The translations under genes were made by a program, and so were the position numbers. Below, in pieces: positions 6,601 through 18,110 of a stretch of DNA of 64,000 nt (within the stretch, counting starts at the first letter, position 1; each line of letters begins with the position of its first letter). The DNA lies in the NCBI GenBank assembly GCA_007692425.1, contig RECG01000006.1:62001-126000 (forward strand). Direction: 5' to 3'. The stretch is from Acholeplasmataceae bacterium (lineage in GTDB: Bacteria > Bacillota_I > Bacilli_A > Acholeplasmatales > Acholeplasmataceae). The notes under the pieces are model-generated. The model did not search any database, was not told where the DNA came from, and saw only the letters and a list, made by a program, of their open reading frames with translations.

Positions 6601-7829
6601 AGTCAGGCTATTTGACAAGGCGTTTGGTCGATGTCAGCCAGGATGTGATTGTGATTGAAGAAGATTGTGGAACTGAAAAAGGCATCACCATGCATCCAAT
6701 CGAGGAAGATTCGAAAGAAATCGTGCCATTGGCGGATCGTATCGTGGGACGCTTTGCCAGCAAGGATGTCATCATTCCCAAAACCAAACAAGTCTTGGTC
6801 AAACGCAACGAACTGATCACCGAAGAAATCGCTGCCCAAATCACTAAATACAACATTGAATCCGTTGAGATCCGCAGCAACCTGACCTGCAATTCCGACA
6901 ATGGTGTCTGTGCCAAATGTTACGGACGCAATCTCGCCACCAACACACGTGTCGAAGTCGGTGAGGCGGTCGGTGTCGTGGCTGCCCAATCCATCGGTGA
7001 ACCGGGCACACAGTTGACGATGAGAACCTTCCATACGGGAGGCGTCGCTTCAGCATCCGATATCACACAAGGTCTGCCCCGTATCCAGGAACTTTTCGAG
7101 GCACGCAAGCCCAAGGGTCAGGCAGTCCTCAACGAATACGAAGGCAAGATCAAGTCTATTGAACGTCAACGAAGCGGACATAGCATCATCAACATCGATG
7201 TCAATATCAAGGGCAGTCAGCAAACCAAAGAATATCCTGTCGATCCCAATGTCGAAATCATCGTCAAGAAGGGCATGACAGTTCGAGCAGGTGAACGATT
7301 GACCCATGGTTCGATCAATCCCAAAGAATTATTGAGGGTGAAATCAACCGAAGCAGCCGCAGACTATATCTTGAAGGAAGTTCAAAAAGTATACCGTGCC
7401 CAAGGTGTTGAAATCAGCGACAAGCACATCGAGTTGATCATCAGACAGATGCTCAGGCGTCTGAATGTGGTGACCGAAGGCGATACGGACTTGTTGCCGG
7501 GGACGGAAGTCTCCATCGCCGAGTTCAAACGCGCCAACAAGAAAGCATTCAAGGAAGGCAAACGACCCGCCGTCGGACGCGCCATCCTGCTCGGCATCAC
7601 ACGCGCATCCTTACGGAGTGATTCATTCTTGTCAGCCGCATCCTTCCAGGAAACCACCAGGATTCTGACCGATGCCGCCATCAAAGGCAAGACCGATGAA
7701 TTGCACGGCTTGAAGGAAAACGTCATCATTGGCGGACTGATTCCGGCCGGAACAGGCATCTTGAGGGAATCAGCCTTTGAATATGACCGACAAAACACGT
7801 ATACCGAAGAAGAAGAGATAGAGTATTGA
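3675..7829 (+). CDS. rpoC: RNA polymerase subunit beta' with N-terminal alpha-CTD-like extension
   Basis: Catalytic beta' subunit, 1384 residues. Canonical features are the first zinc site C221-x-C223...C235-x2-C238, the active-site motif NADFDGD (residues 608-614, Mg2+-binding aspartates), the bridge-helix/trigger region ([32 protein letters not shown]), a second Cys cluster ([13 protein letters not shown]) and the downstream [17 protein letters not shown]. In E. coli the first zinc cysteine is residue 70, so about 150 extra residues precede the normal beta' start. These contain two similar helix-hairpin-helix-like units, about residues 8-62 ([20 protein letters not shown]) and 68-124. They resemble the RNA polymerase alpha C-terminal domain pattern 'L-S-x-R-x-x-N-x-L-K-x-x-G-I-x-T-V-x-D-L'. 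An acidic linker follows, then conventional beta' sequence from about residue 157. The start is fixed by TAATG coupling to rpoB and the upstream AGAGGAGG. Confidence 0.98.
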
Positions 7830-7841
7830 TTGATGTTATCA

Positions 7842-7875
7842 AACAAGGCGATGGTCATGCATTGCCTTGTTTTTT
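7842..7875 (+). terminator. Intrinsic terminator of rpoBC
   Basis: AACAAGGC at 7842-7849 pairs with GCCTTGTT at 7864-7871 and runs into a T tract. It lies 13 bases after the rpoC stop. Confidence 0.85.
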
Positions 7876-7932
7876 ATTGGCATATGTCATGCGTAAACTT
7901 GTCGAAACACAACACGCTTCATTCGTTGACTA

Positions 7933-7941
7933 TGTTATAAT
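7933..7941 (+). promoter_or_regulatory. Extended -10 promoter for the K+ channel gene
   Basis: TGTTATAAT is a perfect extended -10 (TGn + TATAAT at 7936-7941), 30 bases before the chosen ATG. No convincing -35 is present at 17 bases; TTGACT at 7925 is too close to serve. Confidence 0.6.
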
Positions 7942-7970
7942 AAAGGCATCAAAGCAAGGAAGTGGCAGAC

Positions 7971-8993
7971 ATGTTGGAAGTCAAAACCATCAAAATCAGT
8001 AAACTCTTGATCTGGCTGTTGGTGATTATTTTCATCATCATCTCAGCCAGTATCGTCTACATGATTTTACTCAATGTGTCATTCTTGGATGGGTTATATA
8101 TGACCATCATCACTATTTCAACCGTGGGTTATCAGGAAGTTGGAGAGATGACGCCTGCAGCCAAAATATTTTCAATCAGCTTGATTCTGGTAAGTGTCGG
8201 TACGATTGGTTTTCTGGTTTCCAATGTCATCAGGTTTTTCAACGAAAGCAATATCAATGAAGCGTGGAGGAGAAATAAGATGGATAAACAGATCGCGCAA
8301 ATGACCAACCACATCATCATTTGTGGTGCAGGTGAAACCGGCATTCACATCGTCAAACAATTTAAGAAACGGCAAATTGAGTTTGTCGTGATTGACCTTG
8401 ATCAGGATGCAACCGAAACCTTGAAAGAAATGAATGTACCGCATTTATATGATGATGCGACAAAAGAAGAGGTGCTGGTTGCCGCTGGCGTCAAACAAGC
8501 GCGCGGATTGATCTCCTCATTGGCCAAAGATGCTGACAATGTCTTCGTCGTTCTCACCGCCCGTGAATTGAATCCAAGCTTGCATATTGTGGCACGCTCA
8601 CATGAGGAACAGTCTCATAAAAAACTGAAAATAGCAGGTGCGAACAACACGGTGAGCCCCAATGAAATGGGGGGCAGAAAAATGGCTTCGATGATGCTAA
8701 AACCGACATTGTCACATTTCATGGATCACATCATTGATACCAAGGACATGTCTATCGACATGGAGGAAGTCACCATTCACGAGTTTTCTGAGTTGTGCAA
8801 AAAAACGCTTCGTGAAGCGAAGATATCAGAGAAAACAGGGTTAATTGTCCTCGCCATCCGAAGGGATGATGTGGAAACCTTTATATTCAATCCTAATGCT
8901 GAGGAAAAACTGAGACCTGATGACAAAATGATTGTCGTCGGTGAAAAAGAGCAAATCAACAAGCTAAAAGAACTGGCCAAGGATCATGTCTGA
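7971..8993 (+). CDS. Two-TM potassium channel with RCK/TrkA domains
   Basis: Predicted ligand-gated K+ channel of the MthK/YugO type, 340 residues. A hydrophobic helix (about residues 11-33) is followed by a pore loop with selectivity filter TVGY in TISTVGYQEVG and a second helix (SISLILVSVGTIGFLVSNVI). The cytosolic part starts with a Rossmann RCK/TrkA-N domain (IIICGAGETGIHIVKQF, with the GxGxxG loop and acidic strand-2 end VIDLD) and ends with a TrkA-C-like domain (about residues 250-340). I prefer ATG 7971 over an in-frame GTG at 7962, because AAGGA at 7956-7960 sits 10 bases before the ATG but only one base before the GTG. In other bacteria such channels can respond to Ca2+, nucleotides or c-di-AMP; the ligand here is unknown. 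A gdpP homologue at 27 kb would degrade c-di-AMP. The end overlaps psuK by 8 bases. Confidence 0.9.
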   Translation: MLEVKTIKISKLLIWLLVIIFIIISASIVYMILLNVSFLDGLYMTIITISTVGYQEVGEMTPAAKIFSISLILVSVGTIGFLVSNVIRFFNESNINEAWRRNKMDKQIAQMTNHIIICGAGETGIHIVKQFKKRQIEFVVIDLDQDATETLKEMNVPHLYDDATKEEVLVAAGVKQARGLISSLAKDADNVFVVLTARELNPSLHIVARSHEEQSHKKLKIAGANNTVSPNEMGGRKMASMMLKPTLSHFMDHIIDTKDMSIDMEEVTIHEFSELCKKTLREAKISEKTGLIVLAIRRDDVETFIFNPNAEEKLRPDDKMIVVGEKEQINKLKELAKDHV

Positions 8994-9888: not shown

Positions 9889-10796
9889 ACCCTTATCTTC
9901 ATCTCATGCCTGAAGTACGTGAAGCCCTGGCAGCTGGAAAACCGGTTGTCGCACTCGAATCTACCATCATTTCACACGGCATGCCGTACCCTGAAAATCT
10001 GAATATGGCCAAACATGTCGAGACCATCATCCGCGAAGCGGGCGCCATCCCGGCAACCATTGCCATCATCAACGGCATTATCAAGGTGGGTCTTGACGAT
10101 GATGACCTCTTGCTTCTTTCAAAAAGTCAGGACATCATGAAAGTCTCCAAAAGAGATCTTGGCTATGTCTTGTCAAAACAACAACATGGCGCGACCACGG
10201 TTTCCGCCACCATGTTGATCGCCGCCATGGCCGGCATCAGCGTTTTTGCCACGGGCGGTATCGGCGGGGTGCACCGCAACGCACCGGAAACATTCGATAT
10301 TTCAAGAGATCTTGAAGAACTGGCCCAAGTGGAAGTCTGTGTCGTGTGTGCAGGCGCCAAATCCATTCTCGATCTTGGCTTGACGCTTGAATTTCTGGAA
10401 ACAAAAGGGGTTGAAATCATCGGTTATCAAACCAATGAACTCCCCGCCTTCTATACGCGCACCAGTGGACATCAACTTGACTTGAGATTGGATTCCGCTG
10501 CTGAAATCGCCCGACTCATGCAGGCCAAATGGTCGCTTGGGTTGACAGGGGGCATCGTGGTTGCCAATCCGATTCCGGCCGCTCATGAGATGGATGCCGA
10601 TTTTATCAATCATCTCATCGATCAGGCTACTGCAGCGGCCGGGAAACAAGACATCAAAGGCAAGGCATTGACACCTTTCCTGCTATCCTGGATCAAAGAA
10701 AACAGCAAAGGGGCCAGTTTGAAAGCCAACCTGGAACTGATGTTCGCCAATGCCAGACTGGCCGCAGACATTGCCGTCGCCCACAGCAAACTTTGA
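9885..10796 (+). CDS. psuG: Pseudouridine-5'-phosphate glycosidase
   Basis: 303 residues. Cleaves the C-glycosidic bond of pseudouridine 5'-phosphate to uracil and ribose 5-phosphate, a Mn2+-dependent lyase-type reaction. Diagnostic blocks are ALESTIISHGMPYPEN near the N-terminus, ISVFATGGIGGVHR, the lysine-containing VCAGAKSILDLG, and IVVANPIPAAHE. Length and domain order match the family. ATG 9885 overlaps the psuK stop (ATGA), so a longer upstream extension in the same frame is rejected. No terminator is visible downstream. Confidence 0.95.
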   Translation: MNPYLHLMPEVREALAAGKPVVALESTIISHGMPYPENLNMAKHVETIIREAGAIPATIAIINGIIKVGLDDDDLLLLSKSQDIMKVSKRDLGYVLSKQQHGATTVSATMLIAAMAGISVFATGGIGGVHRNAPETFDISRDLEELAQVEVCVVCAGAKSILDLGLTLEFLETKGVEIIGYQTNELPAFYTRTSGHQLDLRLDSAAEIARLMQAKWSLGLTGGIVVANPIPAAHEMDADFINHLIDQATAAAGKQDIKGKALTPFLLSWIKENSKGASLKANLELMFANARLAADIAVAHSKL

Positions 10797-10862
10797 TGTT
10801 GCCTACACGTGTGTCAGCGGACATGTCATGTCGTCACTTGGCGAGATTGGTATGCCCGGTTG

Positions 10863-10890
10863 TTGAGATGTCGCGAAACTATTGTATAAT
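10863..10890 (+). promoter_or_regulatory. Promoter of the kinase/vWA/PP2C cluster
   Basis: TTGAGA at 10863-10868, 16-base spacer, TATAAT at 10885-10890 preceded directly by TG. It lies 31 bases before the first gene of the six-gene cluster, and I see no other promoter until 16.86 kb. The cluster therefore has its own sigma-A-type promoter. Confidence 0.75.
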
Positions 10891-10920
10891 CTATATATAG
10901 CAAACCTAGGAGTCCATGCG

Positions 10921-11655
10921 ATGACCGATCAAACGGCAACCATTCCCAAAGAAACTCAAATTGCGCGATCAGAATCGAAACGATCTCTAAAGACATTCAT
11001 GTCTGAGACAGACATGTTTAAAACATTTTATCAAAGGTTGATGATGCTTCCCAAAATCATGGACCTTTATATTCGTTATGAAAAGCAATTGCCTGCAAAA
11101 GCAAACTATTGGCATCTTTTTGACTTGGAACGCATCATGATCATGCCCGATCAATCATTGCATATCGATGAAAAACAATTGTTTGAAGATGCCAGCCAAT
11201 CCAAACAGATCATGATTAAAAAACATCAGCATACCCTGGGCCTTGATCATTTACAGCGTGCAGCAAGCCTGATCAGACGCAAGAAAAAACCTGATTTTGC
11301 CAAACATAAAAACAAGCTGGCCGCCATGGACACATCAGGTATTGTCATGTTTGAATTCATTTTCGAAACGCATCCTTATTCGGGTGAAGCCTATTATGCC
11401 GAACGACGTTATGAGCATGACGGCTATATCACATGGCACGATAAACATCGGCCTCCGTTCATCTTTGATGCCGCAGACAATCATAACCGCCCCGTTCACG
11501 GGTATCATCATAAAGCAGCGAAACTCTGGCAGGACCTGACGTTGGACAAGATCGGTCTGACATCGCTTCAAACATTCTTCATCAATCTGTTTTCAAGACA
11601 GTTCAAGGACCTCGAATCCTGCCTGACATATTTCAAGGAACACGTGCGAGGTTAA
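10921..11655 (+). CDS. Kinase C-lobe-like protein of unknown function
   Basis: 244 residues, first gene of the phosphorylation cluster. ATG 10921 is preceded by AGGAG 8 bases upstream. No family is recognised outright, but by eye it resembles the C-lobe of the kinase encoded next. HPYSGEAYY (from residue 151) and FDAADNHNRPVHGYH (from residue 182) correspond to HGDPLEGK (residue 211) and FDPENTSNRPDPKIH (residue 243) of that kinase, with almost the same spacing (31 versus 32 residues). Both are followed by a Trp and a helix with LQ..F. No glycine-rich loop, ATP-binding Lys, HRD-like or DFG-like motif is present, so catalysis is unlikely. I infer a degenerate kinase-derived partner or substrate-recognition subunit. 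It is highly basic (RRKKKPDFAKHKNK) with no signal peptide or membrane segment. The gap to the kinase gene is 12 bases. Confidence 0.7.
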   Translation: MTDQTATIPKETQIARSESKRSLKTFMSETDMFKTFYQRLMMLPKIMDLYIRYEKQLPAKANYWHLFDLERIMIMPDQSLHIDEKQLFEDASQSKQIMIKKHQHTLGLDHLQRAASLIRRKKKPDFAKHKNKLAAMDTSGIVMFEFIFETHPYSGEAYYAERRYEHDGYITWHDKHRPPFIFDAADNHNRPVHGYHHKAAKLWQDLTLDKIGLTSLQTFFINLFSRQFKDLESCLTYFKEHVRG

Positions 11656-11667
11656 AAGGGGAGACAC

Positions 11668-13038
11668 ATGACCAAGAAGAAGATTGTGCAGATGGATAAC
11701 GGCCAGCAATGTGAAGTGTTGGGCATTCTGGGCGAAGGCGGTCAAGGCATCGTCTATAAAGTCCGCTATAGCGAAGACAACAAAATCTATGCCCTCAAGG
11801 TCTACACGGCGAAAAAAATGCCCCCTTATTTCATCAAGAACATGGCCAACAATATCGGCAAAGGGGCACCCAGCCGTGCTTTCATCTGGCCAAGGCTGCT
11901 GACCAAGCCTTTCGGTCAGCGTCAAAATCGCATTGGCTACATGATGGACATGTACGGCAAGGAATATGTGTCGCTGGCCAAACTGATCAAGGGCAAAGCA
12001 GCACCCAAAAATGCCTTCATCCAAATCAAACTGCTATTGGAACTTGTCCGTGCTTTTGAGGCCTTGCATGCCAAAGGGTATAGTTATCAAGATTTAAATG
12101 ATGGCGGCGTGGTCTTTGATGTTGACAAAGGCTACATCAAGATTTGCGATAACGACAATGTGGCTCCATACGGTCAAAATCTCGGCATCAAGGGCAAATT
12201 CAAATATATGGCGCCAGAAGTTGCCATCGGCATGTTTCCGCCAGATAAGTATTCCGATTATTTCTCGCTTGCCGTCTTGATTTTTATGATTCTCTTGCAC
12301 GGCGATCCACTAGAAGGTAAACGAAAAACCGCCTTGATTGCACTGACATTGGAAGACAAAGAACGCATTTACGGCACCAATCCCATCTTTGTTTTCGACC
12401 CTGAAAACACCAGCAACAGACCCGACCCCAAAATTCACAAGACCGTCATCAAGGCTTGGGAAAAATGTCCGGGGTATATCCAAGATTTGTTTATCAAAAC
12501 CTTGACCAAGGGTTTGCCGGGCGAAGGGAAGGAAAAACCAGACATCGCCAAAGAACGGCAGCTCAGGGCAACCGAAAAAGAGTGGATCAAGGGACTGAAC
12601 AAATGGCTGGCATCAATGGTGACGTGTCCGCATTGTGGCATCGGCACGTACCTCTTGATTGATGACCAACATCAAATCCAACCGAAAAAATGCACAAGTT
12701 GCGGCAAGCCGCTCAACACCAGACTTCCGATCCTGGCCATCAAGAAAGGCAACATGTGGTTGCACAACATCATTCTTGAAAAGGATAAACACATTTTAAA
12801 AACACAAGTCAGCGACGTCACCAGCGATCAAGCGGTGGCCACAGTTCTCCCTTCACAGCGCATCAAGGATTATTACGCCATCAGAAATATTTCAGGGCAA
12901 GCGTGGTCTTACCACCTTGACGAACAAACCAAGGTTTGTCATCCACAAGACATCATTCCAACCATTGACGGCCTGCACATCACTTTCAGTCCGTCGTATG
13001 AAGGCATTGTGCATTCGTTGATCAAACCCAAGAAATAA
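11668..13038 (+). CDS. Ser/Thr protein kinase with C-terminal zinc ribbon (TerY-P type)
   Basis: 456 residues. Kinase N-lobe: Gly-rich loop LGEGGQGIVYKV (residues 21-32) and ATP-binding Lys44 in YALKVY. C-lobe: catalytic Asp142 in YQDLNDGG, metal-binding Asp161 in the motif DND (in place of DFG), and A182-P-E184. The usual Asn five residues after the catalytic Asp is Gly147. After the kinase fold comes a treble-clef/zinc-ribbon-like unit, C320-x2-C323...C342-x2-C345, then about 105 beta-rich residues ending FSPSYEGIVHSL, possibly FHA-like (weak). A kinase with a C-terminal Zn ribbon beside a TerY-like vWA and a PP2C is the composition of the TerY-phosphorylation (TerY-P) triad. RBS AGGGGAG precedes ATG. 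Likely cytosolic; substrates unknown. Confidence 0.9.
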   Translation: MTKKKIVQMDNGQQCEVLGILGEGGQGIVYKVRYSEDNKIYALKVYTAKKMPPYFIKNMANNIGKGAPSRAFIWPRLLTKPFGQRQNRIGYMMDMYGKEYVSLAKLIKGKAAPKNAFIQIKLLLELVRAFEALHAKGYSYQDLNDGGVVFDVDKGYIKICDNDNVAPYGQNLGIKGKFKYMAPEVAIGMFPPDKYSDYFSLAVLIFMILLHGDPLEGKRKTALIALTLEDKERIYGTNPIFVFDPENTSNRPDPKIHKTVIKAWEKCPGYIQDLFIKTLTKGLPGEGKEKPDIAKERQLRATEKEWIKGLNKWLASMVTCPHCGIGTYLLIDDQHQIQPKKCTSCGKPLNTRLPILAIKKGNMWLHNIILEKDKHILKTQVSDVTSDQAVATVLPSQRIKDYYAIRNISGQAWSYHLDEQTKVCHPQDIIPTIDGLHITFSPSYEGIVHSLIKPKK

Positions 13039-13059
13039 AAAAACGAAAAGAGGTGTAGC

Positions 13060-13821
13060 ATGTCAGGAAAAATTGAAATGGTGGGCGAATTCGCCCAAGG
13101 TGAAATGGCGGTCATCGCCTTGATTGACACATCGGGAAGCATGATCGGTGAGAAAATCGGTCAAGTCAATGACGGCATGAGACACGCGATTGAATTTTTA
13201 AAGGAGTTTAATGAAAATTCGATTGATGTCGCGGTCAAGATTGCTTGTCTGACTTTTTCTTCAGGCGCTGACTGGGCCAACAAAAAAACGCCGCTCCAAG
13301 ATCCTGAAGATGTGATCTGGAACGACATCCATGCCGGAGGCTTCACCGAATTCGGGGCGGCCTGCAAAAAAATGAAGGACGTCTTGACCATTGAAGAAAA
13401 AGGCGGCTGGATGAAAAACAGAGGCGGCATCGCGCCTGTATTGATTTTGATTTCAGACGGTCAACCGACAGACGAGTACCAAGGCAGTCTCAACGCCTTG
13501 AAAAAAAGAGGTTGGTTCAAAGGGGCGCTGAAAACAGCTATTGCCATCGGGAATGACGCTGACCGGGAAATGCTGAAAGAATTCACGGGCCACGAAGAAG
13601 CCATTTTTGACGTGTATGCTTTCCAGGACCTTTCGAAAGTCATCCGCAAACTGGTCGTCACCGCTTCGATGGTTCAAAGCCAGACCACATCCCTGTCACA
13701 CGGACAAGGCGACGAAGGATTTGGCCTTGATGTCGAAAAGGCCCAGGAAGAACAGATCAAACAGCTGAAAGAAAGCGTTGAGGCAAGTCTTGATGATGCC
13801 GATCTTGCTGATGATTTTTAA
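13060..13821 (+). CDS. TerY-like von Willebrand factor A protein
   Basis: 253 residues. vWA domain with an intact metal-ion-dependent adhesion site: D23-T-S25-G-S27, the Thr in GGFTEFG, and the Asp in LISDGQPTDE. No signal peptide, so it is cytosolic like TerY. After the vWA fold (to about residue 205) there is a Gln/Ser-rich linker and an acidic C-terminal tail (EEQIKQLKESVEASLDDADLADDF would be the end region; positions 230-253) that could be a docking or phosphorylation segment. It sits between kinase (21-base gap) and phosphatase (24-base gap), which is the TerY-P arrangement. In this family MIDAS vWA proteins are thought to scaffold the kinase/phosphatase pair. RBS GAGGTG upstream of ATG. 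Confidence 0.9.
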   Translation: MSGKIEMVGEFAQGEMAVIALIDTSGSMIGEKIGQVNDGMRHAIEFLKEFNENSIDVAVKIACLTFSSGADWANKKTPLQDPEDVIWNDIHAGGFTEFGAACKKMKDVLTIEEKGGWMKNRGGIAPVLILISDGQPTDEYQGSLNALKKRGWFKGALKTAIAIGNDADREMLKEFTGHEEAIFDVYAFQDLSKVIRKLVVTASMVQSQTTSLSHGQGDEGFGLDVEKAQEEQIKQLKESVEASLDDADLADDF

Positions 13822-13845
13822 ACATACACCATAGGAGGGCTCGAC

Positions 13846-14769
13846 ATGAAATCGGTCCATGCATCATGTATCGGTGACGCACATGTCAAATCTAAAAAAC
13901 CGAAACAGGACGACGCCTTCTCATTTCCCAATGGCGACCCGGAAGCCGAACAAAAGCCCTATGCCATCGGCATTGTGGCAGACGGACACGGTAGTCCCCG
14001 TTATTTCAGAAGTCATATTGGTGCCGACATTGCCACAAAGGTCGTTTTTGAAATTCTCGAACATGTGGCAAACGCGTATCCATTGTTTGAAAACATCACC
14101 GACCACCAGGCGCTCATCAAAAACATCAAAGTCACCATCCTTGCCAAATGGGCAAAAGCCGTACGCGGGCATCTCGCAGACCAACCTGTCACGGAACACG
14201 ACTTCAAGCGCGTTATCAAAGAAAACGCGGTCAAAGGCGATGCCAACAAGAAGACAGATAAGACCGGCACTGCAGAACGCGTGAAGAAGTTGCAGGCCGA
14301 TCATGAAAAGAACCCCTACAAAACATATGGCACCACCCTTCTGGCCACATTGCTCACCCGGCATTATCACTTTTCCATCCAGCTTGGCGACGGGATGATC
14401 ATCATGTATGATCCTTCTTATGCGGAAAACCGGGTTTTGCATCAAAACGATCTTCAACACGAAGGCCCGCATGGTTTGACAGACTCTTTATGCACAACCG
14501 ATGCATATGAACATATGTATGCGACTTTCGAACCTTGTGATAACGATCAACGGATTGGTTTTTTCCTTTGTACGGACGGCGTATCGGAAGCCTTTGATAG
14601 AAACGAAAGTCTTTACGCCAATATCAAAAACATCACGAAAGCCTATTTAAGCATGGCTCATACGGAAGCTGTTGAAGCCATCACGGAATGGATACAACAC
14701 GTCTCCTCGCGCAGTTTGGCCAAAGACGATGCATCCTTGGCATTATTGTTGAATCACGAAGCATTTTAG
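13846..14769 (+). CDS. PP2C-type Ser/Thr protein phosphatase
   Basis: 307 residues. PPM/PP2C phosphatase fold with metal-binding motifs in order: KQDDAF (D22/D23), VADGHGS (D46-G-H-G49), GTTLLATLL, IQLGDGMIIMY, CTDGVSEAF and C-terminal KDDASLALLL. A Lys/Glu-rich insertion (about residues 120-160) lies between the second and third motifs. It should remove phosphates placed by the neighbouring kinase, completing the triad. RBS TAGGAGGG sits 8 bases before ATG 13846. All metal ligands expected for PP2C appear present, so activity is likely. Confidence 0.93.
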   Translation: MKSVHASCIGDAHVKSKKPKQDDAFSFPNGDPEAEQKPYAIGIVADGHGSPRYFRSHIGADIATKVVFEILEHVANAYPLFENITDHQALIKNIKVTILAKWAKAVRGHLADQPVTEHDFKRVIKENAVKGDANKKTDKTGTAERVKKLQADHEKNPYKTYGTTLLATLLTRHYHFSIQLGDGMIIMYDPSYAENRVLHQNDLQHEGPHGLTDSLCTTDAYEHMYATFEPCDNDQRIGFFLCTDGVSEAFDRNESLYANIKNITKAYLSMAHTEAVEAITEWIQHVSSRSLAKDDASLALLLNHEAF

Positions 14770-14783
14770 AAAAGAGGCAGGGC

Positions 14784-15317
14784 TTGAAGAAAAAGCACAT
14801 ATTTTTGTTGCTTGACACATCGGGAAGCATGAATCTTGAGCAAATCGGTATTGTCAACCACATGTTCAGAGAACTGTTCTCAGAACTGGACGAACTTTAT
14901 CGCCAGCACCTGATCACCGTGGATACAGTCCTTTTTTCTGATGATGCCGTGTTGCTTGAAGATGTACAGGCCCTATCAAACAAACAACTTACTTGGTTCG
15001 ATCTGCCTCGTGAAACGTTTCAAGGACGCACCAGTCTGGGCAAAGCCTACCGGCTTGTCCAGCAAACCTGCAAACTGTTCGATTATCCATTGACTGACAC
15101 CTTGATCGTACTAGTCACAGATGGATTACCCACCGACAATTTTGTGTTTGAACTAGAGAAAATGGATCCGAAAAAGCAAACCAAAAGATTGTCATTTTTG
15201 CTCGGTGAAAAAGCCAAAAGCATCATCCAGATTCACACGGGTTTCAAAACGGCCAAACAATATAAGCAACCCAATCAATTGATTGAAGCCATCAAGGGTG
15301 TGATTGAGCATGGCTAG
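14784..15317 (+). CDS. Second vWA-domain protein of the cluster
   Basis: 177 residues. Compact single vWA domain with MIDAS D11-T-S13-G-S15, the Thr in FQGRTSLG, and the Asp in LVTDGLPTDN. It is distinct from the TerY-like protein upstream and lacks its C-terminal tail. Start chosen as TTG 14784, six bases after AGAGG (14773-14777) and just after the PP2C stop. An in-frame ATG at 14688 would lie deep inside the phosphatase gene without a ribosome site. The 3' end overlaps the membrane-protein gene by 8 bases, suggesting co-translation and possibly physical interaction with that protein. Confidence 0.85.
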   Translation: MKKKHIFLLLDTSGSMNLEQIGIVNHMFRELFSELDELYRQHLITVDTVLFSDDAVLLEDVQALSNKQLTWFDLPRETFQGRTSLGKAYRLVQQTCKLFDYPLTDTLIVLVTDGLPTDNFVFELEKMDPKKQTKRLSFLLGEKAKSIIQIHTGFKTAKQYKQPNQLIEAIKGVIEHG

Positions 15318-16776
15318 CAAGGGACCCAAAGAAATCGCCCGCGAACTGTTACATGCCGTCAATCTGAAAAAAGCCTATTTCCAGCATGTGTCACACATTG
15401 AAGAAGACTTTTATTGTCTTGTTGAAAAAGATGCTTTCGAAGGATTGTTGGAAGATTTGTTCATCGATGATGAAACCAACAATAAAATCAAACACGCCTT
15501 CATGATGTCCTTTATTCATGATTTTGGCTTTAACTACTTCAAACAAGGCAAGGAAAGACTGCAAGATTTGTCATTCATCGCCAACAATGTCGCGCGAAGC
15601 GAGATTATCACCGAAGGCAAATATCTGGATCTTGTGCTAAATACCTGGCATCTCTTTTTTGAAGCCAGTGCCCAAATCGCCTCGTTTGATGTCAAAACGA
15701 GTCAAACGCTAAAAGACGAAGCCGAAAATCACAACATGACGCTTTTGGAATTCAACCGCGAAATCAGACTATATCGCCGCACGTTGTCGACAGACCTTTC
15801 ACTGCTGCCCCTGAACGGCTTGAAAGCTTTTACGAGGGAACTCAAAGACATGGAAACCAATGTCCGGACCCTCAACATGAAAATCAATCGTTCCCAGTTG
15901 CAAATACCGGAAGCGTTCACCAATTACTTTTCAACCATCAGTGAACAGTATGACGCGGTCTATTACGAAGTCTCTAAAAAGTTGACGGTTGAAATCGAAG
16001 CAAAGAAAAAAGAACTGCAGACACAAATCAAAATCGCCCAAAGCAAAGATCGAAGAAGCACGTTCAAGAAATTTATCCGCAGGGCGACACTGAGACTGGC
16101 CTTCATCTTTCTCTTCATCAGCGGATTTTACATCTTTTTACAACTTTATCTGGCACAGGCTTTCCACACATACATCCCGTTTGAAGGCATCAGGCAATGG
16201 TTGTCCGACATCCACGTCGGCGTGGTCGGCGCGTTGGCCTATCTTGACCCTTGGCAAGGGCTGATTTACGTGTTGTTCATGACTGGATTGATGTTTCTCG
16301 TCTTTCTTTTTGCCGGGAATCTCATTCACAAGACAATGCTCTTCATCATGTGGCTGATGACATTTCTCGGAGGCATGTTTTATGGCACCCACCCCTGGAC
16401 GCCCACACTCGAGCATCAAAACAACCTGCCTCTTGAGTGGGCGGGCACGTATGTTTATGACCACGTTTTCATGATCATGACGAGATTCGGCGTGTTTCAT
16501 CTGATCCTTGCCGGTATTGCGCTTTTGATCATCATGGGATCGATCCGTTATACCAAGGTCAAAAGATTGTCCTATTTCCTATTCCGATTCGGTTTGTTGA
16601 TCCTGGGTGTGGTTTTGATCATGCAGGCAATAGCAGACGTGATCACCATGCTTTTCACGGTTGACTGGCCGCTTGCGGATGTCATCAACTACGGTCACCT
16701 CGTCGGTTATTTGTTATTGTGGTCGGGGGCGCTATTCTCGTTTTTCTATTTTTTGCCCAGAAAAAAGAAACGCTGA
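15310..16776 (+). CDS. Six-TM membrane protein with long cytosolic N-terminal region
   Basis: 488 residues, last gene of the phosphorylation cluster; no family recognised. Residues 1 to about 255 are soluble, predicted mostly helical, with a Lys/Glu/Gln-rich segment just before the membrane (about residues 215-250) that is probably coiled coil. From about residue 260 there are six hydrophobic segments: LAFIFLFISGFYIFLQLYL, GLIYVLFMTGLMFLVFLFAG, MLFIMWLMTFLGGMF, FHLILAGIALLIIMG, LLILGVVLIMQAI and VGYLLLWSGALFSFFYFL. There is no pore or transporter signature. ATG 15310 overlaps the upstream vWA stop. It could be the membrane effector or sensor of the kinase/phosphatase module; that is inference from position only. 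Confidence 0.8.
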   Translation: MASKGPKEIARELLHAVNLKKAYFQHVSHIEEDFYCLVEKDAFEGLLEDLFIDDETNNKIKHAFMMSFIHDFGFNYFKQGKERLQDLSFIANNVARSEIITEGKYLDLVLNTWHLFFEASAQIASFDVKTSQTLKDEAENHNMTLLEFNREIRLYRRTLSTDLSLLPLNGLKAFTRELKDMETNVRTLNMKINRSQLQIPEAFTNYFSTISEQYDAVYYEVSKKLTVEIEAKKKELQTQIKIAQSKDRRSTFKKFIRRATLRLAFIFLFISGFYIFLQLYLAQAFHTYIPFEGIRQWLSDIHVGVVGALAYLDPWQGLIYVLFMTGLMFLVFLFAGNLIHKTMLFIMWLMTFLGGMFYGTHPWTPTLEHQNNLPLEWAGTYVYDHVFMIMTRFGVFHLILAGIALLIIMGSIRYTKVKRLSYFLFRFGLLILGVVLIMQAIADVITMLFTVDWPLADVINYGHLVGYLLLWSGALFSFFYFLPRKKKR

Positions 16777-16799
16777 AGGCGTCAGATGCAACAACGCCT
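16777..16799 (+). terminator. Hairpin after the phosphorylation cluster
   Basis: AGGCGT (16777-16782) pairs with ACGCCT (16794-16799) immediately after the last stop codon. No T tract follows, so it is at most a weak terminator or an mRNA 3' end structure. Confidence 0.3.
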
Positions 16800-16823
16800 G
16801 ATAGTGCGCACGGGTCCAGTCAA

Positions 16824-16852
16824 ACGTTTTTTTGTTTTAAAACAAAAAACGT
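16824..16852. repeat. A/T-rich palindrome between two gene blocks
   Basis: Near-perfect inverted repeat: ACG + seven T + GTTTT on the left mirrors AAAAC + six A + CGT on the right. It may act as a bidirectional terminator or protein-binding site. It sits 36 bases upstream of the spt-like gene promoter region. Confidence 0.55.
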
Positions 16853-16859
16853 ATTCATG

Positions 16860-16888
16860 GCGACATATTGGCGATTATGCATTATAAT
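16860..16888 (+). promoter_or_regulatory. Promoter of the spt-like/SDR pair
   Basis: TATAAT at 16883-16888 with GCGACA (4 of 6 matches to TTGACA) at 16860-16865 and a 17-base spacer. It lies 35 bases before the start codon. Confidence 0.5.
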
Positions 16889-16922
16889 AAGTTTAAACGA
16901 TTTTTTGAAATGAGGCATCACC

Positions 16923-18110
16923 ATGGACGTATTTAAGAAATGTCATACATATGAAGCCGCTAAAAAAGCACGCGAAGGCGGCTATTATCCCTATTTCCAC
17001 GAATTGACGAGCAAACAGGATACGATTGTCATGATGGAAGAAAAAGAAGTCATCATGATCGGATCCAATAATTATCTGGGACTGACCTCACATCCTGAGG
17101 TGATCCAAGCCGCCGTTGACGCCACCAACAAGTATGGCACCGGTGTTTCCGGCTCCCGCTTTTTAAACGGCACATTGGATCTTCATAAAGTGCTTGAAGC
17201 TGAGCTTGCGGCGTTTTTGAACAAGGAAGACTGCATTATTTTCGGAACGGGGTTTCAGAGTAATCTGGCCATTATTTCATCACTTGCAGGACGCAACGAC
17301 ATCATTTTTTCAGACAAAGAAAACCATGCCAGCATTTATGACGGCATTCGGTTGAGTTATGCTGAAATGGTCCGTTATCAGCACAGTGACATGGCAGACC
17401 TGGAATCCAAACTTGCCAAAGCCGATAAGAACAAGGGCTATCTGATCATTACCGATGGCGTTTTCAGCATGACCGGCGATATTGCCAATTTGCCTGAAAT
17501 TGTGGCGTTGGCCAAAAAATACGGGGCACGCGTGATGGTTGATGATGCCCATGCATTTGGTGTGTTAGGCCCGACCGGTCGTGGGACGGCAGAACATTTC
17601 GGACTTGAAAAAGAAGTCGACATCATCATGGGGACCTTTTCCAAATCATTGGCCAGCCTAGGCGGTTATGTGGTGGCGGAAAACGATGTGGTTGATTACA
17701 TCAGGCATACCTCGCGACCTTATATTTTCTCGGCGGCGATTCCGCCTTCAAACACGGCGGCCGCCCAGGCAGCCTTGCATATTCTCAAACGGGAACCAGA
17801 GCGGGTCAAAGCCTTGCATGATATCGCTGATTACATGCGTGAAGGCCTCAAAGCCAAAGGGCTCAAGATAAGGGATTCAAAGACGCCGATCATCGCCATA
17901 TTCACCTATATGCCGATGCGGACGATACTCGCCTGCAACATGCTCTTTGAAAACGGTGTCTATGTCAATCCGGTATTGCCACCGGCAACACCGATCGGCG
18001 AATGTCTGATCCGTACCAGTTATACGGCCACCCACACCAAAGAGCAAATGAATGCCGCCATCGAAAAGATCGTGGCCGTCCTGAATGAATTGGAAGGTTT
18101 GGAAGAGTGA
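16923..18110 (+). CDS. Serine palmitoyltransferase-like alpha-oxoamine synthase
   Basis: 395 residues, PLP-dependent alpha-oxoamine synthase (fold type I) that condenses an amino acid with an acyl-CoA. Landmarks: IGSNNYLGL and GVSGSRFLNGTLDLH near the N-terminus, DDAHAFGVLGPTGRG with the PLP-ring Asp, and the Schiff-base Lys241 in GTFSKSLASLGG. The family includes glycine C-acetyltransferase (Kbl), 8-amino-7-oxononanoate synthase (BioF), ALA synthase and bacterial serine palmitoyltransferase. The N-terminus DVFKKC..YEAAKKAREGGYYPYF and the FSKSLASLGGY block recall Bacteroidetes serine palmitoyltransferases as I remember them. The following SDR gene supports a sphingoid-base route (3-ketosphinganine, then reduction) but does not prove it; Kbl-type activity is the main alternative. 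Confidence 0.75.
   Translation: MDVFKKCHTYEAAKKAREGGYYPYFHELTSKQDTIVMMEEKEVIMIGSNNYLGLTSHPEVIQAAVDATNKYGTGVSGSRFLNGTLDLHKVLEAELAAFLNKEDCIIFGTGFQSNLAIISSLAGRNDIIFSDKENHASIYDGIRLSYAEMVRYQHSDMADLESKLAKADKNKGYLIITDGVFSMTGDIANLPEIVALAKKYGARVMVDDAHAFGVLGPTGRGTAEHFGLEKEVDIIMGTFSKSLASLGGYVVAENDVVDYIRHTSRPYIFSAAIPPSNTAAAQAALHILKREPERVKALHDIADYMREGLKAKGLKIRDSKTPIIAIFTYMPMRTILACNMLFENGVYVNPVLPPATPIGECLIRTSYTATHTKEQMNAAIEKIVAVLNELEGLEE

Follow-up and report, generated by a model that had tools for sequence, protein, structure and literature searches.

The first gene of a six-gene cassette in an Acholeplasmataceae bacterium encodes a 244-residue protein that, by sequence comparison, is related to the C-lobe of the Ser/Thr kinases of TerY-P triads, and that has neither an N-lobe nor catalytic machinery. 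Because this machinery is lacking and the gene stands first in the cassette, the protein is probably the built-in regulator of the complete kinase encoded beside it and not an enzyme. As a whole, the cassette is a TerY-P triad variant in which a half-kinase is the unusual component. Its features are listed below, all on the forward (+) strand, with positions counted in the window (the whole stretch of 64,000 nucleotides that was analysed).

10797..16922, +, whole cassette, between psuG and a KBL-like gene
10863..10890, +, promoter-like site TTGAGA-16-TATAAT directly 5' of the C-lobe gene (consensus match only)
10921..11655, +, C-lobe-only kinase relative, 244 residues (open frame with an AGGAG ribosome-binding site upstream)
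11668..13038, +, complete TerY-P-type Ser/Thr kinase, 456 residues (Pfam Pkinase, E = 9e-17; 83-sequence alignment)
13060..13821, +, TerY-like VWA protein (VWA1), 253 residues (Pfam VWA, E = 2.4e-11)
13846..14769, +, PP2C-type phosphatase, 307 residues (Pfam PP2C_2, E = 3.3e-27)
14688..15317, +, second VWA protein (VWA2; Pfam VWA, E = 1.7e-6; ortholog in genome G006)
15304..16776, +, 490-residue protein, soluble over its N-terminal half and then, from residue 261 on, with about five hydrophobic segments (hydropathy; ortholog in G006)
16824..16852, +, AT-rich inverted repeat, possible terminator (repeat search; absent from the terminator scan output)

Homology to the kinase C-lobe

The sequence-only reading had matched two motif blocks of the C-lobe protein to the neighbouring kinase. 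HPYSGE is indeed seen in the translated frame from residue 151, and both kinase blocks (HGDPLEGK from 211 and FDPENTSNRP from 243) can be read in the 456-residue protein. The second block of the C-lobe protein is present at residue 182 as FDAADNHNRP, with the spacing F-D-x2-D-N-x-N-R-P in place of the x3 originally given; the distance between the blocks is nearly equal, as had been claimed (31 residues in the C-lobe protein, 32 in the kinase).

This likeness extends beyond chance. The BLASTP match of the C-lobe protein to the neighbouring kinase has E = 2e-4, and its match to a TerY-P kinase of a different family within the order has E = 1e-9. A query profile made of two sequences (the window protein, P0001, and its G006 ortholog, P0002) was compared with an alignment of 83 TerY-P kinases, giving E = 6.9e-12 with residues 22-229 of P0001 aligned to kinase positions 102-284; the controls were clean (reversed, E = 0.035; eight column shuffles, E = 0.20-0.55). 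Compared with separate parts of the kinase, the profile matched the C-lobe (96-316) at E = 2e-12, the N-lobe at 0.13 and the zinc ribbon region at 0.24. In a search of the open frames at 88 loci, the C-lobe profile matched more than 60 TerY-P kinases, nearly all of them at one C-lobe stretch. The C-lobe protein had no significant family match in Pfam, NCBIfam, PHROGs or PADLOC, and thus none to a family other than kinases, and the PDB, searched by sequence with this protein's profile, returned weak matches only, none of them to a kinase.

At the level of sequence, then, the relation to the C-lobe of TerY-P kinases holds, and it is carried by the C-terminal half of the protein: residues 135-244 alone match the kinase profile with E = 6e-13, and residues 1-134 alone reach E of about 0.1-0.16, which is not significant. 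The C-lobe likeness that had been proposed for the whole protein accordingly stands on its own for residues 135-229, which correspond to the helix F-H region of the kinase; residues 22-134 are colinear with the kinase without significance, which is why the presence of helices D-E and of the catalytic-loop strands in the N-terminal half is given as likely. When the stretch 22-77 was searched alone, its top local placement was the colinear kinase segment 102-153, and two aligners, with both orthologs included, placed helix E and the catalytic loop identically.

A single-sequence AlphaFold model of the C-lobe protein (pLDDT 39.8) was too poor for use. A second model, for which the alignment consisted of kinase APE-to-helix-H fragments only and the G006 ortholog was left out, reached a mean pLDDT of 71.8; it is helical, mostly at 79-95 from residue 131, and has a long N-terminal helix (10-55), which differs from the short helices D and E and lies where the alignment has no depth. 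We regard this model as weak evidence, because its alignment favours a kinase-like outcome; a Foldseek comparison of it with the PDB listed mostly kinases, none significant (all with E of at least 3). An earlier kinase alignment for folding was dropped, having matched an LH to the kinase LHxxG and misplaced the N-terminal half.

The cassette and its distribution

The six genes (C-lobe protein, kinase with zinc ribbon, VWA1, PP2C, VWA2 and membrane protein) lie on one strand with short gaps, 12 bp in the case of the C-lobe gene and the kinase. The frame of the C-lobe gene is enclosed by a longer, TTG-started one, with the ATG 39 bp inside; the promoter-like site upstream has 11 of 12 consensus matches and is the top site within 10700-17000. 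The C-terminal zinc ribbon of the kinase (CPHCG...CTSCG, 320-346) was read from the sequence, the Pfam zinc-ribbon matches being below cut-off, and its C..C/C..C pattern is mostly conserved over the 83 kinases. The MIDAS motif of VWA1 (DTSGS...T...D) is visible in its sequence. The VWA2 frame overlaps the end of the PP2C gene, and its true start probably lies just past 14769 (the G006 ortholog has 172 residues). The 490-residue protein is, from its sequence, a candidate membrane effector or sensor. Judged by operon layout, the C-lobe gene is co-expressed with the complete triad, the second VWA protein and the membrane protein.

The TerY-P triad consists of a TerY-like VWA protein, a PP2C phosphatase and a Ser/Thr kinase that bears a zinc ribbon at its C-terminus (Anantharaman et al. 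2012, following the account in PMC11090510). All three components, together with the kinase zinc ribbon, occur here in one operon, as in that description (PMC11090510); the window cassette adds a C-lobe-only first gene and a membrane-protein last gene, and has no nuclease or helicase partner inside it. Duplicated VWA genes are known from Type III-A CoCoNuT operons (PMC11090510). TerY-P-like anti-phage systems (Gao et al. 2020, cited in PMC11090510; PMC10889362) likewise have a kinase-phosphatase-VWA signalling module on a discrete cassette, and TerY-P systems have shown anti-phage activity in Pseudomonas, where most cells survive (PMC10889362). Among the roles considered for such triads, namely tellurite resistance, stress signalling and phage defence, the last is thus plausible for the present cassette. 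The systems of Gao et al. 2020, as cited in PMC11090510, differ in that their kinase carries an OB-fold, whereas the window kinase carries a zinc ribbon.

All six genes are found in identical order, in a different genomic context, in G006, a genome from another genus of the same family. Its C-lobe ortholog lies directly 5' of the kinase, and the two frames (244 and 246 residues) are both intact. Identity between window and G006 is 25% for the C-lobe protein, 59% for the kinase, 73% for VWA1, 39% for PP2C, 40% for VWA2 and 30% (over part of the length) for the membrane protein. In G006 the two genes that flank the window cassette, psuG and the KBL-like one, lie next to each other, 237 bp apart, which we read as an empty site; because this site is empty, the cassette is a discrete unit, and the shared six-gene order together with the empty site indicates that the C-lobe gene belongs to it and is not a chance host neighbour. 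On the G006 contig that carries the cassette (contig 41; L097, positions 1-100, the contig start), what looks like the 3' part of a tRNA gene, ending in CCA, precedes the C-lobe gene by about 300 bp; it was read by eye, and ARAGORN made no call.

Across 160 genomes of the order, full-length matches to the C-lobe profile come from the window and G006 only, two further matches (G043 and G116) being the C-lobes of complete kinases. The kinase itself is present in five genomes of the order, three of which belong to other families and have no C-lobe gene. Of the 88 genomes of the family, two have the VWA1 marker, and each of these also has the C-lobe gene; relatives of VWA1 were found in triad operons of G043, G116 and G132. 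Samples of the class and of the phylum (nearly 400 genomes each) yielded complete-kinase or weak partial matches only; no relatives of the C-lobe protein were found among phages, plasmids and viral contigs, nor any C-lobe-only neighbour gene beside the kinase at 81 TerY-P kinase loci.

Several observations were made in passing at these loci. Proteins of 490-640 residues encoded next to TerY-P kinases (L073, 2546-4345; L067, 5375-7297 on the reverse strand; L080, 9077-10552; L078, 9126-10616) match, at their C-terminal end, the kinase region past the zinc ribbon (E from 3.6e-14 to 1e-3), which suggests, from sequence, that the kinase and these effectors share a C-terminal domain. Residues 45-78 of the 490-residue window protein have a weak colinear likeness to the starts of other TerY-P-operon accessory proteins (LL.DLF; E = 0.05, not significant). 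In an uncultured Selenomonadaceae bin (L079) the TerY-P kinase is split into an N-lobe frame (6983-7312, 110 residues) and a C-lobe/zinc-ribbon frame (7335-8276, 314 residues), probably by a frameshift or assembly error, and it could be a true split kinase. A 567-residue frame near a TerY-P kinase (L020, 13543-15243) has a weak kinase-profile match (E = 0.006) and is perhaps a divergent kinase.

Losses, divergence and parentage

The claim that the N-lobe and the ATP-binding and catalytic motifs are missing was borne out both by a six-frame search and by counts of conserved positions. No N-lobe remnant was found in the C-lobe gene or in the six frames upstream of it, in the window or in G006 (best E = 1.5); the same search on the neighbouring kinase gave E = 4.9e-29. 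Kinase positions were scored as conserved where at least 80% of the sequences agree. Of these, 10 of the 21 in helix F-H survive in both C-lobe proteins, as do 2 of the 19 in the catalytic loop/DFG stretch; none is left of the 9 in the activation segment or of the 27 in the N-lobe. A Fisher test that sets helix F-H against the catalytic loop and activation segment combined gives p = 0.002. These counts hinge on the alignment, and for the N-terminal half the alignment is uncertain. The Gly loop, the Lys, the catalytic Asp (H and L at that position in the two proteins) and APE are all missing; the DFG Asp may have a counterpart in D83, which would be useless without the remaining catalytic residues. 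The protein thus lacks the set of features that make an active kinase (an N-lobe with Gly-rich loop and VAIK Lys; catalytic Asp, DFG/DND and APE). Because the N-lobe is absent, we call it a half-kinase and not a pseudokinase in the strict bilobal sense. Bacterial Ser/Thr pseudokinases (PMC12599244) are, like the C-lobe protein, kinase relatives without catalytic residues; the text of that review mentions none of C-lobe, truncated, TerY, VWA and PP2C, and in its one passage on an N-lobe the domain has this lobe, which the C-lobe protein does not.

In a tree of the 110 columns common to the C-lobe proteins and the kinases, the C-lobe pair and the neighbouring-kinase pair form separate clades, each well supported. 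It follows from these clades that the C-lobe and kinase lines had already split when the two cassettes diverged. Forcing all four sequences together costs 4.15 log units (p-AU = 0.167), so sisterhood of the two pairs is neither supported nor rejected; the kinase nearest to the C-lobe proteins by tree path is that of G043, and the C-lobe branch is long, which makes its position unsure. The tree path is 2.43 for the C-lobe protein and 0.33 for its kinase neighbour, the former diverging much faster. The idea of a duplicated and eroded kinase is right in outline (C-lobe homology, no N-lobe, catalytic loss, a frame kept in two genera), whereas descent from the neighbouring kinase in particular is left undecided by the tree, the better BLASTP match (1e-9 against 2e-4) lying elsewhere. 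The adaptor or decoy role suggested along with that idea is putative.

Possible roles of the half-kinase

We put at about an even chance the proposal that the C-lobe protein is a maintained, non-catalytic half-kinase that regulates or scaffolds the triad through its helix F-H surface. Made alongside the triad, it would have a regulatory part in the complex, with the helix F-H surface that it retains mimicking the docking face of the kinase itself. It would bind either the kinase or one of the proteins that partner it (PP2C, a VWA protein or the membrane protein), and, once bound, it would either bridge the complex or compete with the kinase for that partner (scaffolding or inhibition). The proposal builds on the homology, the losses, the operon layout and the co-inheritance in two genera described above, and on a physical docking that we infer. 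Weighing against it, the protein is represented by two sequences only, and its fast divergence could mean weak constraint; no kinase origin can be demonstrated for residues 1-134, in which the function might lie; and the confident part of the model starts for the most part near residue 131, with no significant Foldseek match.

A known arrangement offers a partial parallel. In HipBST, a split-kinase toxin-antitoxin system, HipS is the counterpart of the HipA N-terminus and acts as an inhibitor of HipT (PMC9325769); there, as here, a small part-kinase protein is encoded upstream of a kinase, which in HipBST it regulates (PMC9325769). HipS is an N-terminal part, however, whereas the C-lobe protein is a C-terminal lobe beside a complete kinase, and the families differ. 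By this analogy we suggest, tentatively, that a dedicated C-lobe-only subunit may control a kinase-phosphatase cassette, probably one for defence, by docking-face mimicry, as a mirror image of HipS.

It is rather doubtful, given the evidence on both sides, that the working part is instead the N-terminal half (1-134), a non-kinase domain acting as sensor, antitoxin or effector-control element and tethered by helix F-H. That half is not significantly kinase-like, no family was matched, and its modelled helix 10-55 is unlike helices D and E, in a region of no alignment depth; yet the stretch 22-77 alone falls on the colinear kinase segment, two aligners agree on helix E and the catalytic loop, and length and order suit a whole C-lobe. 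An unlikely, narrower form of the regulatory-subunit reading is a dominant-negative dimer partner, whose helix-G face would bind the kinase and block or seed activation-loop phosphorylation in trans. PknB-like bacterial kinases are thought to be activated through an asymmetric front-to-front association that leads to activation-loop phosphorylation (PMC3601408), and the helix F-H region is among the parts retained; for TerY-P kinases such dimerisation is an analogy only.

A decaying duplicate without function would account for the very fast divergence, the loss of every catalytic motif and the two known copies, but we hold it to be improbable, because frames of 244 and 246 residues have stayed intact in two genera at about 25% identity, the operon position was kept as the cassette changed locus, the losses are centred on catalytic positions with helix F-H kept, and the gene has a promoter-like site of its own. 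Very improbable is a chance likeness or membership of another family: no curated family calls the protein a kinase, but the E-value of the best single comparison, the profile-profile match with its clean controls and the matches to 60 or more independent TerY-P kinases, placed almost always on one stretch, stand against it.

TerY-P triads are widespread, some modules akin to them give protection from phages, and to our knowledge the wiring of kinase, phosphatase and VWA protein within them has not been established. If the half-kinase is the regulatory subunit that we propose, a protein retaining one kinase face points to that face as a docking surface and would offer a ready-made tool for dissecting the triad. 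It would also exemplify kinase evolution through the loss of an entire lobe and not of catalytic residues alone.
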